Positions 34,166-40,915 of a stretch of DNA of 64,000 nt are shown here, piece after piece. Origin of the DNA: Thermococcus sp. EP1. Lineage in GTDB: Archaea > Methanobacteriota_B > Thermococci > Thermococcales > Thermococcaceae. The notes under the pieces were generated by a model that did no database searches, was not told where the DNA came from, and saw only the letters and a list, made by a program, of their open reading frames with translations. Each line of letters opens with the position of its first letter. Position 1 is the first letter of the stretch. The translations under genes were made by a program, and so were the position numbers. The stretch is from NCBI RefSeq assembly GCF_001317345.1, contig NZ_JXCG01000003.1, forward strand, positions 62,001 to 126,000, written 5' to 3'.

Positions 34166-34807
34166 CTAAATCCTGAGCTCTATACCATCAAGCTCATTGT
34201 CTATCGATTTGACAATTGAGAATAAGATATTTTTCCCAGCTTTATCCAGTTTAATAATCGTTGTGGAAACGCTTTCAATTAGAGGGAGTGCTTCAGGAAA
34301 AGCTCTCTCTAAGACGTTTGTTGGGATGTAGTAGAAGGCTATCCTCTTTTCAAATCCAATAAATGGCATAACTTGGTTTATAAGGTTTTGTAGTACTTCT
34401 TCTTTGGAACCAGATGTTATTAATAGTTTTTCATAACCTAAAACACAATTGATGACTCTTTCTCTATTGAAATAATTTTCAAAAATCTCTTGATACCTTT
34501 TATTGAGCACAGGTATATCACTCCGGCTTATATATCCTACAATATTACCCGTTTTCTGAATTCCTCTAATTTTAATGACTTTACTCTCGTCTAGCACCTT
34601 GGTTTCTAGTCCTGCAATCTTCATGTGTTGTTTGTAAACATTAAGAGTATCGAGGATATCATCAATAAGGATTAGATATCCTCGCTCTTTGGCCCAGTTT
34701 AATATTAAATGAAAGAGTTTTGAAGTTGGAGTATATGTAGAGTGTTCTACTAAAACGGTTTCCCCCCATTTAAGATTATCTAGAATCCTCTCTAACATTT
34801 CAATCAT
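34166..34807 (-). CDS. DUF257 family protein (KaiC-related fold, no P-loop)
   Basis: A 213-residue protein of the Thermococcales-restricted DUF257 family. It has the layout of a RecA/KaiC domain ([25 protein letters not shown] where the P-loop would be, then [12 protein letters not shown]) but lacks GKT/S, so it probably does not hydrolyse ATP. The function is unknown. The ATG at 34807 follows GAGGTG by 6 bases. It is one of several P-loop-less RecA-fold proteins in this window. Confidence 0.78.
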
Positions 34808-34857
34808 AGTGTACACCTCACATGATACATATGCAATATTTAATATTTAAATTTTTT

Positions 34858-37336: not shown

Positions 37337-38608
37337 TCAGATATCTTTTCCAACGATGAAAATTCTTTTAGTCTTTCCTGGTTTTTGGGGTAAGTTCTTT
37401 CTAACCTCTTTCGCTGGAACAGCCTCTATTTTGAGCTCTGATGATTTAGCTTCTTCTACTTCATATCTAACTGGATTATTTGCCTCATATATCAACTCTC
37501 TTATCTCATCTTCTACACCGGCTGGTTTTTCTCCCATGTATCCTACCCTTATTGTAGCTTTTGGCTTTGGATTTTCTGGGGAGAGTGGGTGATAGATTAT
37601 CACGAAGTCTATTAGGGAGGGATATCTATGAACTATGTCCATAACCTGGTCTATGTGGAGTTTTGCTCCGGCGAGACTTATCGTGTCCTTTTCTCTTATA
37701 ACATTTACAATTTTTCCATCAACCACTTTTGCCAAGTCCCCAATCTTGTAGTTAAACAGTGGCAATCCTGTAAGTTCTCCCTCTTTCATAACCTTTGTTA
37801 TATAAATTTCATGATATTCTTTGTACTCTTCGTCTTTGGTCTGTTTAAGGACTATTAGAGAGTCTGAAAAGGTAAATGGAGTTACTTTTTTCTTTGTGAT
37901 TAATCTATACCCGGTTAGCCCATCCTCTGTGCTTGCAAATACATCAAAAATTACTGCATTTGGAAAGTTATCAAGAACTACTTTTGCTAACTCTTTTGTT
38001 AGTGTTTCTCCACCCATAATTATGAGCTGAATGTCATTTCTTATATCTTCTGGAAGAGTTAGGCTAAGATTGTATACTGCAGCAGTTAACCCAAATATTC
38101 CTGTGGCTTTTATCCCTCTTAGTTCCTTTATTAGTGCGTCTCTCATTCGCAGATATTGGATGGGAATTTGATGATACCTAATGTTTGCATCTGAAAATCC
38201 TTCAATCGCAAAAACTCCGGATGAAGATGGTAATGGAGCAGTAAACGATGCCATGATAGACCCTTCTAGGTATTCTAGGGCCCAAGAACGAGCTTGACGG
38301 CGATATCTCTTTTTGTCATCATGTGTAAAAGGTACTCTTTTTGGATCCCCAGTAGTCCCACTTGTTCTCATCACCCCGTGGAAGATTTCCACATTTTTTA
38401 TATATGTGGGCCACAGTTTATCTGTATTGTACAAATCGTGGGGTGTTATGAAGACTTTGTCAGTAGCTGAAAGCAAGCTGTTGGGAGTCAATTCATCAAT
38501 ATTTGTTCCCATGAATTTTTCTTTCCAGAATTCTGTAGTTTCACATGCTTTCTCGGCTGTATATCTCAAATCGTTGGTATTAATATCTCCAAGTACTATC
38601 CCTGCCAT
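37337..38608 (-). CDS. AMP-forming adenylate enzyme, PaaK-like
   Basis: A 423-residue member of the ANL adenylate-forming superfamily, nearest to phenylacetate-CoA ligases and F390 synthetases by layout. The phosphate loop is VMRTSGTTGDPKRVPF (near 78-93), then IIMGGETLTKELAK, VFDVFASTEDGL (A5 region) and YKIGDLAKVVDGKI (A7/A8). It would activate a carboxylate as acyl-AMP; the acceptor is unknown. GGTGAT lies 2 bases before the ATG. It diverges from a second PaaK/LuxE-like gene at 38738. Confidence 0.82.
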   Translation of the reverse strand: MAGIVLGDINTNDLRYTAEKACETTEFWKEKFMGTNIDELTPNSLLSATDKVFITPHDLYNTDKLWPTYIKNVEIFHGVMRTSGTTGDPKRVPFTHDDKKRYRRQARSWALEYLEGSIMASFTAPLPSSSGVFAIEGFSDANIRYHQIPIQYLRMRDALIKELRGIKATGIFGLTAAVYNLSLTLPEDIRNDIQLIIMGGETLTKELAKVVLDNFPNAVIFDVFASTEDGLTGYRLITKKKVTPFTFSDSLIVLKQTKDEEYKEYHEIYITKVMKEGELTGLPLFNYKIGDLAKVVDGKIVNVIREKDTISLAGAKLHIDQVMDIVHRYPSLIDFVIIYHPLSPENPKPKATIRVGYMGEKPAGVEDEIRELIYEANNPVRYEVEEAKSSELKIEAVPAKEVRKNLPQKPGKTKRIFIVGKDI

Positions 38609-38737
38609 GGTATCACCCTCTTCAATAACGCAGTTCTACTATTTAACCATTTAGTTTTTGGACCATAAAGAAAAATTAATAACCTCTGTGTGTAATTTTA
38701 TACATCATGTTTTCGAAAGTTGCTAGGAGGATTATAA

Positions 38738-39796
38738 ATGTTAAGATATAGGGATATAATCGAGGAATATGAGAATCCCTTAAATATCAGCGAAAGAGAG
38801 ACAGTAGAGTATCTTCGAAGAGTTTTTGAACATCACTTTGACAACACTCCCTATTGGAAAAAAATGAAGGGGAAAATAGAGTTAAATCAGATTTTTGAAG
38901 GAAGCTTGAATGAGGTTTTTGAGAGGATATTTAACGCTAGGTTGGCTGTTGACGAAGATTATTTACGGAATAACTGGCTGGACTTCCTCCCAGAAAACTA
39001 TAGTGGTAGGATTCGGTTCTACCAATCATCAGGTACAACCAGAGAAAGAGCAATTGGACACTGGGCATATGAGTATCTAAAGCTTCTTGTGAAATATCTA
39101 AGAGTTTCATTTGATGAGGTTTATGGATTGGATAAAAAATATAATGAAAACCACAGGATGAGAGCAATAGCCCATGGTCCATATGGGTGGTATCAGGAAG
39201 AGATAAGTGAACTGGTATGGTCTTATGGTGGTTTGCTCTATTTTATTGGGGTGGAGACTGATGGAATAAAACGAGAACTTGAGGAAAAAAAATTAGAAGA
39301 GGTATTAAAAGGAAGATTAGCTCCATTGGCAAGATATACCAAAAGGATTTTTGAAAGGGATAGAATCAATACAATTAGAACCGGCCCACAGATGCTTGCT
39401 CTTGTTCCAGAGCCGGAAAACATAGAGACCGTAATTTTAAGTGGGCTCGGCATTACTGTTAACTCTCTCAAAGAAATTCAAAAAACTTTTAAAAATTCGA
39501 CTATCATCCCCCTCTACGGGTATTATGCGTTTGGAGATATAATAGGAATGCTTAAAAATAATGAGGTTGTATATTATCCGAATTACCCATTTACTATAAT
39601 ATTTCCATTAGTTCAAGAAGAGGGCCAATACAAAATAGCTAGATATGGGGAACGGGGAAGAATGGGATTAATAATAGCAAGACCTGAACTCCTTATAGTA
39701 AAGATAGAAGATGAGAGTATGAGTAGAGTTCCTCCCGTAGGTCCATTTGGATGGGATGGATTTGGAAACCCCAAACGTGGCAAGAGGGTGATTTGA
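38738..39796 (+). CDS. LuxE/PaaK-like adenylate-forming protein
   Basis: A 352-residue relative of acyl-protein synthetase LuxE and PaaK. RFYQSSGTTRERAIGHWAYEYL (near 91-112) is the SSGTT phosphate loop; IPLYGYYAFGD stands where ANL enzymes have YGxTE, and YGERGRMGLII is near the A7 region. It ends with VPPVGPFGWDGFGNPK and lacks a full C-terminal lid domain. The acyl substrate and acceptor are unknown. AGGAGG lies 7 bases before the ATG. Its TGA is followed at once by the ATG of the membrane/DUF835 gene. Confidence 0.78.
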   Translation: MLRYRDIIEEYENPLNISERETVEYLRRVFEHHFDNTPYWKKMKGKIELNQIFEGSLNEVFERIFNARLAVDEDYLRNNWLDFLPENYSGRIRFYQSSGTTRERAIGHWAYEYLKLLVKYLRVSFDEVYGLDKKYNENHRMRAIAHGPYGWYQEEISELVWSYGGLLYFIGVETDGIKRELEEKKLEEVLKGRLAPLARYTKRIFERDRINTIRTGPQMLALVPEPENIETVILSGLGITVNSLKEIQKTFKNSTIIPLYGYYAFGDIIGMLKNNEVVYYPNYPFTIIFPLVQEEGQYKIARYGERGRMGLIIARPELLIVKIEDESMSRVPPVGPFGWDGFGNPKRGKRVI

Positions 39797-40915
39797 ATGG
39801 TAGACTATTCAATGGTCTCCACTATTCAGGGGATGGTTGTGTTAATAGCAGATCTCTTAGCGTTTACTCTTATTCTGCGTGTTTATCGAAAGACCAAACG
39901 TAGATCTGCACTGTTTATTTCATTGGCTTGGTTTTTTGACTTTTTAACAGTAATCAATTATACTGTGTTAAACCCATATGCGATTGGATTTTTCTTGAGT
40001 ATAGCTTCTGTTTTGATGTTTTGTGGTACCGTAGAACTCTGCAAAGAAGAGGACAGAAGAGTACCACTTATAGAGATATTACCATTTTCGTTAATAGGTC
40101 CATTACTGGCTTTATACTTTATTGGCCTTGAAATTTTAGCAAAAATGGGAATAATTGACATGATAGAAGGTTTCCTTGTAATGGCAGGTTCTCATGCAAC
40201 TGCTGGAATATTTTTCCTGTTGGCTGGATACTCTATTAGGGGTATAGAGGACATATATGGAAGGAAAGCAAGATATCTTTTTATTGGACTAGTACTTTTT
40301 GGAATCCATCTCTTCCCAATTCCAATAATTTACGGTCTTCCTGAACATCTCCAAAAGATATATCCAATAATTGGATACGCTATTTCAGCAGTATTGGTCG
40401 TCTCTTTAACAACTCTCACAATAAAACTAACGTATTCTGATGAATTCAGTGAATTGAGGGCATTAGAAGTTCCTCAAATTACAATAGAACCTGGGGTTTT
40501 GATAGTGAACAAGGAAAAATACACAATTCTAAAAGAAACATTGAAAGATATCCCAGTATTGGCATTTGTTAGAGATCTAAAAGAAGCGTCTGATGTTTGG
40601 GAACGCTATTTCATAACCACAATCAGTAAAGAAGGCAAGGATAACTTTATCTCCCCAACCAATTTAGAGAGAATGACTGAACTTTCATATAGATATCTGA
40701 GAATGATGGAAGAGAAAGGAAGCAGAGGAATTGTGATTTTTGATTGCTTGGAGTACTTGCTGATGTATAATGATTTCAGGAGCGTAATGAAGTTCCTAAA
40801 TAAAGTAAAAGATTTTGTCATGCACCACAATGGAACTCTTATAATCGTTGCAGAAAAAGACGCTTTTGAAGATCCACAATGGGGCATTTTAACGCGTTTG
40901 CTTGAGGAGACATAA
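39797..40915 (+). CDS. seven-helix membrane protein with C-terminal DUF835 domain
   Basis: A 372-residue protein. Residues ~1-210 hold about seven transmembrane helices (for example MVVLIADLLAFTLIL, FFLSIASVLMFCGTVEL, FLVMAGSHATAGIFFLLAG, IGYAISAVLVVSLTTLTI). Residues ~235-372 are a DUF835 domain: IEPGVLIVNKEKYTILKETL, RGIVIFDCLEYLLMYNDFRSV and FVMHHNGTLIIVAEKDAFED, a RecA-like core without a P-loop. It looks like a membrane sensor with a cytoplasmic signalling domain (inference). GGGTGAT precedes the ATG and the previous stop abuts it, so it is co-translated with the LuxE/PaaK-like gene. Confidence 0.82.
   Translation: MVDYSMVSTIQGMVVLIADLLAFTLILRVYRKTKRRSALFISLAWFFDFLTVINYTVLNPYAIGFFLSIASVLMFCGTVELCKEEDRRVPLIEILPFSLIGPLLALYFIGLEILAKMGIIDMIEGFLVMAGSHATAGIFFLLAGYSIRGIEDIYGRKARYLFIGLVLFGIHLFPIPIIYGLPEHLQKIYPIIGYAISAVLVVSLTTLTIKLTYSDEFSELRALEVPQITIEPGVLIVNKEKYTILKETLKDIPVLAFVRDLKEASDVWERYFITTISKEGKDNFISPTNLERMTELSYRYLRMMEEKGSRGIVIFDCLEYLLMYNDFRSVMKFLNKVKDFVMHHNGTLIIVAEKDAFEDPQWGILTRLLEET

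Follow-up and report, generated by a model that had tools for sequence, protein, structure and literature searches.

A PaaK-type ligase, an EhpF-like ANL protein and a seven-helix DUF835 protein are encoded by a conserved gene block in Thermococcaceae

Introduction

EhpF, a protein of phenazine (D-alanylgriseoluteate) biosynthesis (PDB 3hgu, 3hgv and 3l2k), is an ANL protein of about 360 aa that consists of the N-domain only, with a GTT loop but with neither a C-terminal domain nor a Glu at the A5 position. Its gene adjoins the aldehyde dehydrogenase gene ehpG (PMC11278526). The phenylacetate-CoA ligase PaaK and the protein BT_0428 (PDB 2y27 and 4r1m) are ligases that have all of the ANL motifs. 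We know of no partner ANL gene or DUF835 gene for either of them. A further short ANL-type protein linked to acyl activation is LuxE, which carries an acyl-accepting cysteine. Finally, DUF835 (PF05763) has been classed as an inactivated KaiC (iKaiC) domain of archaeal signalling proteins, and the published examples are fused to REC or PAS domains (PMC5847659).

We have analysed a block of three genes, termed A, B and C here, from Thermococcus sp. EP1, which lies in a stretch of 64,000 nucleotides that we refer to as the window. An earlier note on this DNA had proposed that genes for acyl-adenylate chemistry are linked to a gene for a membrane DUF835 protein; the pairing is real, and the three-gene block is conserved. 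No description of the A-B gene pair was found in the literature that we searched. Each protein is of an already known fold family; what appears new against that literature is that a complete PaaK-type ligase is paired exclusively with an EhpF-like ANL protein that has no annotation, and that this pair is tied to a seven-helix DUF835 protein.

Results

Organisation of the gene block

The open reading frames confirmed the layout that the earlier note had described, with A divergent from B and the stop codon of B abutting the start codon of C. The genes and the intergenic region are as follows.

37337-38608, minus strand: gene A, adenylate-forming ANL ligase of the PaaK type, comprising an N- and a C-terminal domain, 423 aa (open reading frame; PF00501 match, 5e-8)
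38609-38737, no strand assigned: spacer between the divergent genes, in which A and B each have a TATA-like element and a Shine-Dalgarno sequence, AGGAGG, lies 5' of B (window and orthologous intergenic sequences, by eye)
38738-39796, plus strand: gene B, EhpF-like ANL protein without a C-terminal domain, 352 aa (open reading frame; profile and fold)
39797-40915, plus strand: gene C, seven-transmembrane protein with DUF835 at the C-terminus, 372 aa (PF05763 match, 2e-32; hydropathy)

It can be seen that the TGA stop codon of B (39794-39796) directly abuts the ATG of C (39797), and B and C are probably co-transcribed. The 129 bp that separate A from B (38609-38737) contain TATA-like elements which, as read by eye, are putative promoters. 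In the A-B spacer of several orthologous loci (L106, L107 and L110 among them) an inverted repeat resembling TTGG-N7-CCAA lies between the two TATA-like elements, and is a possible candidate operator. When compared with close relatives, A and B gave dN/dS values of 0.06-0.19 and C gave values of 0.03-0.26, which indicates that all three genes are under purifying selection; in most of these comparisons C was evolving faster than A and B. A DUF257 gene (1.4e-45), from a Thermococcales-type family of unknown function, is located near the block at positions 34166-34816 of the window.

Gene A encodes a complete PaaK-type ligase

The match of A to the AMP-binding family PF00501 lies above the cut-off and is the only such match in the genome. 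Searches of NCBIfam returned the AMP-dependent CoA ligase of the DVU_1553 family (2.6e-12, a score that falls well short of its cut-off), the F390 synthetase (1.4e-6, 27 bits against a cut-off of 459) and an amino-acid adenylation domain, likewise far under its cut-off. As all of these scores are far below threshold, no substrate can be named from them. Taken at face value, the second match would make A an adenylyltransferase of a hydroxyl-bearing cofactor, in the manner of coenzyme F390 synthetase; however, a score so far under the cut-off can be explained by generic ANL resemblance, and we regard this assignment as extremely unlikely.

The catalytic motifs of A were assessed in an alignment of 20 orthologs, which located the following feature.

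38336-38368, minus strand: A3 phosphate-binding loop of A, residues 81-91, RTSGTTGDPKR

Within this loop (TSGTTGxPK) the residues T82, S83, G84, T85, T86, G87 and K90 are invariant, as are E228 (A5), D291 (A7, in YxxGD), R305 (A8) and K412 (A10, in PGKTKR). A structure model of A (pTM 0.72) found the acyl-CoA ligase BT_0428 as its best Foldseek match (E 2e-18), with PaaK1 and ClxA also among the matches. Fold, length and all of the ANL motifs are thus common to A, PaaK and BT_0428, at 15-18% identity. We conclude that A is a PaaK-type two-domain ANL ligase with every catalytic motif, and it is probably catalytically active.

Gene B encodes an EhpF-like protein that consists of the N-domain only

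Gene B has no family match in Pfam or NCBIfam. When its profile was compared with the PDB, the best match was EhpF (3l2k/3hgu, E 4.5e-7, over residues 20-345), and an AlphaFold model of B (pLDDT 82, pTM 0.84) again gave EhpF as the best Foldseek match (3hgu, E 4.5e-17, TM about 0.7), followed by PaaK1 (2y27). The profiles of B and A are related over the N-domain with a probability of 95%, and the model of B, at 352 aa, ends with this domain. The earlier note had called B LuxE/PaaK-like; its placement among ANL proteins holds, with PaaK as the second-best fold, although B is nearer to EhpF than to LuxE.

B shares with EhpF the N-domain-only architecture, a length of about 360 aa, the GTT loop and the absence of a Glu at A5. 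The two proteins are 17-18% identical, and they differ in that B has an arginine, R104, and is without the A3 Lys that EhpF keeps. They also differ in setting, since B is archaeal, no phenazine-type neighbours were seen at the B locus, and the gene lies beside those for a PaaK-like ligase and a membrane protein rather than beside an aldehyde dehydrogenase gene. The region corresponding to the A3 loop was located from the ortholog alignment.

39017-39064, plus strand: altered A3-like loop of B, residues 94-109, FYQSSGTTRERAIGHW

The loop follows the pattern SSGTT[RG]xR, in which the canonical A3 Lys is absent, and the low pLDDT of residues 96-102 fits a flexible phosphate loop. Invariant residues of B in the alignment are FYQSSGTT, R104, H108-W109, GPYGW, Y260-G261 and D340, the last of which falls close to the A7 aspartate of EhpF in the alignment and is a putative ribose-binding Asp.

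These features bear on whether B is catalytically dead and plays a regulatory or structural part in a heteromer with A, which would then be the sole enzyme. B lacks not only the A3 Lys but also the A5 Glu and, with the entire C-terminal domain, the A10 Lys, and it co-occurs exactly with A (see below), all of which would suit such a subunit. However, the invariant, pocket-like FYQSSGTT, R104, H108-W109, GPYGW and D340 argue for a maintained ligand site, and EhpF is likewise without a C-terminal domain and A5 Glu. Loss of the ATP site, which the earlier note had named as a result that would speak against its proposal, describes B only in part, as its GTT loop is invariant and so is the putative ribose-binding Asp. 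We consider a catalytically dead B unlikely.

B is not a member of the LuxE family

The earlier note had also raised the possibility of LuxE-type acylation of the sensor or of a partner protein. Under such a scheme B would be an acyl-protein synthetase that carries an acyl group on its own cysteine and delivers it to the sensor or to a reductase, and B does resemble LuxE in being a short ANL protein paired with an acyl-activating enzyme, here together with a membrane protein. However, none of 20 B orthologs matched the Pfam LuxE family (PF04443), and B of the window has no cysteines at all, as do most of 47 orthologs, which argues against acyl transfer of the LuxE type; with EhpF as the nearest fold in addition, we rejected B as a LuxE member. 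No LuxC or LuxD partners are found nearby. The genome gave a single weak match to the LuxC profile (25.7 bits), in a protein of ~506 aa encoded elsewhere that reads as a generic aldehyde dehydrogenase, and a LuxC partner for B was rejected on this basis. A route through a carrier protein gained no support either, as no PP-binding protein match was found in the genome. The LuxE-like reading is thus already largely refuted, and we rate it as very unlikely.

A and B share one distribution and one chromosomal site

We surveyed 94 Thermococcaceae genomes for the three genes. A is present in 56 of them and B in exactly the same 56, where the B count takes in intact genes, a frameshifted one (G078) and one cut by a contig end (G058), and leaves out two remnants (G016 and G040). 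In all 56 genomes the two genes diverge from one another and occupy a single fixed position in the chromosome. At 52 of the 53 readable A/B loci, B is immediately followed by the best match to C, the count excluding three loci (G085, G063 and G003) at which the contigs end. The sole exception is G077, in which C is split by a TnpB-type ORF. This ORF (L103, 7650-8828) reads as a TnpB-type transposase with a CPICGG...CECG zinc finger, and A and B of the locus are intact. The distance between B and C falls between -32 and +51 nt at 37 of 38 loci, and the order HTH-protein gene, HD-domain gene, A, B, C is identical in all sampled A/B-positive loci from four genera. The block that the earlier note proposed is therefore conserved, and its layout is far beyond chance. 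That most branches of this heat-loving family retain A, B and C side by side points to a functional unit.

A and B were sought further afield. In 115 genomes of the phylum B was not found outside Thermococcaceae, and A likewise had no match in the phylum outside this family. A contig scan with peptide patterns found B in Thermococci only, the patterns being strict enough that distant relatives could be missed. The plasmids searched contained no B, with one weak A-like stretch on a Streptomyces plasmid, and the viral contigs searched contained no relative. With the fixed synteny, these results led us to reject a mobile or viral origin of the block; a defence system was rejected as there was no PADLOC match.

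Genomes without the pair are informative about C. Both A and B are missing from the nine genomes of genus g3. Three genomes, G016, G040 and G023, have degraded N-terminal fragments of B after the HD gene, which in G016 and G040 are spread over two frames, and an intact C behind these fragments. In G052, where C adjoins the HD gene, a sequence just before C weakly matches part of the C-terminal region of B. In a tree of C, the C-only genes of G016/G040/G023, of G052 and of G030/G033/G019 take separate positions within the clade of syntenic C genes, a pattern that suggests several joint losses of A and B in which C was retained. As some lineages keep C beside remnants of B, C is a stable neighbour of A and B that is not dependent on them.

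One further locus shows B alone disrupted: in G078 (L113, 7296-8403) B is broken into three frames by stops and frameshifts, and A and C are intact. This B is either a recent pseudogene or a sequencing error; unless it is the latter, A may persist for a while without B.

Gene C encodes a membrane protein with an inactivated KaiC-like domain

The seven-helix protein with DUF835 that the earlier note had recognised was confirmed by hydropathy and by the match to PF05763 (residues 239-369; 2e-32, 112 bits against a cut-off of 33.1).

39812-40432, plus strand: the seven transmembrane segments of C, covering about residues 6-212 (hydropathy of 52 orthologs)
40511-40903, plus strand: DUF835 domain of C, inactivated KaiC-like (PF05763 match)

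The seven hydrophobic segments, analysed in 52 orthologs with the positive-inside rule, have basic loops on one side, indicating an N-out/C-in topology. The Walker A motif GxxxxGK[ST] was found in none of the 52 orthologs, and with this loss binding rather than ATP hydrolysis is the expected activity of the domain. C therefore resembles the archaeal DUF835/iKaiC signalling proteins in having PF05763 without Walker A and a predicted signalling role, and it differs from the published DUF835 proteins (PMC5847659) in that its DUF835 domain is joined to seven helices and in its association with two ANL proteins. From its domains, C probably has a sensing or regulatory role.

The Thermococcus sp. 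EP1 genome has ten DUF835 genes in varied contexts. Several of the others (L152-L159) lie close behind varied genes of the same direction, such as a sugar nucleotidyltransferase-like gene and a DUF401-like permease gene, and it looks as if a membrane DUF835 protein has been attached to many different systems. One lies between DUF401-like permease and DUF116-like genes (L158, 4378-5433), as does a DUF835 gene in G093 (L085, 1856-2992), and the same order in both genomes suggests another conserved DUF835 partnership. The question of whether DUF835 genes usually lie apart from ANL genes, which the earlier note had treated as decisive, thus has a divided answer: C is adjacent at nearly every A/B locus, yet it persists without A and B in several lineages, and the nine other DUF835 genes are elsewhere.

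A potential explanation for these observations is that A and B cooperate in the biosynthesis or salvage of an aryl or short-chain acid, dividing the work between PaaK-like CoA ligation and an EhpF-like second activation, and that C is merely a co-transcribed general regulator that has no dedicated pathway ligand. The nearest folds to A, namely PaaK and ClxA, which are ligases of aromatic acids, and an acyl-CoA ligase, are in keeping with this, as are the retention of C without A and B and the DUF835 paralogs beside unrelated genes. However, the coupling of B to C is kept in almost every A/B locus. One form of this explanation, in which salvage of an aryl acid replaces the shikimate pathway, predicts that A/B and chorismate synthase are anticorrelated. 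Chorismate synthase was found in 13 of 48 near-complete genomes with A/B and in 8 of 26 without, and with shares so similar we rejected replacement of the shikimate pathway. In G029 (C1:216953-217967) the chorismate synthase match is fragmented by stops, apparently a decaying shikimate gene. We view an acid-processing pair with an unspecialised regulator as possible but rather unlikely.

Discussion

We propose that A and B form an obligate acyl-activation unit that is co-expressed with C as a membrane sensor or regulator, and we put the probability of this at about one in two. The strongest link in the data is that between A and B, with identical distribution, fixed arrangement and joint loss; the link between B and C is strong in layout and one-sided in evolution. 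Support for a unit of A and B comes from their presence in the same genomes, at a fixed divergent site across four genera, and from their joint loss with C kept. It comes also from the proteins themselves, since A keeps the ANL motifs and the acyl-CoA ligase fold and B keeps invariant pocket-like residues and the EhpF fold. We infer that A and B act together biochemically. Against extending the unit to C is the survival of C without A and B in several lineages, and with a ten-member family in varied contexts the link between C and A/B may be looser than the operon suggests.

In the proposed acyl-activation unit, A would adenylate a carboxylic acid with ATP and would then most likely pass the acyl group to CoA in the fashion of PaaK. 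B, which amounts to a reduced ANL domain like that of EhpF and has an altered phosphate loop, would be a partner subunit of A or, alternatively, would take the acyl-adenylate or thioester made by A into a second step; B might also be an independent enzyme. C, probably co-transcribed with B, would act through its cytoplasmic DUF835 domain by binding, and would sense or report the state of the pathway, or the acid used, at the membrane. A more elaborate scheme, which we consider quite improbable, is that A and B make a small acyl product by a new two-ANL reaction, with A activating and B condensing or releasing, and that C is its dedicated membrane receptor, so that the block would form a metabolite or signal circuit private to Thermococcaceae.

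In archaea of this kind, ADP-forming synthetases are generally regarded as the main route of acid activation. The A-B-C block is a defined and experimentally approachable archaeal unit that brings together the only PF00501-type ligase of the genome and an obligate, unannotated ANL partner. It also places one of ten poorly understood DUF835 proteins beside a concrete neighbour, and so offers a handle on what the DUF835 membrane proteins respond to.
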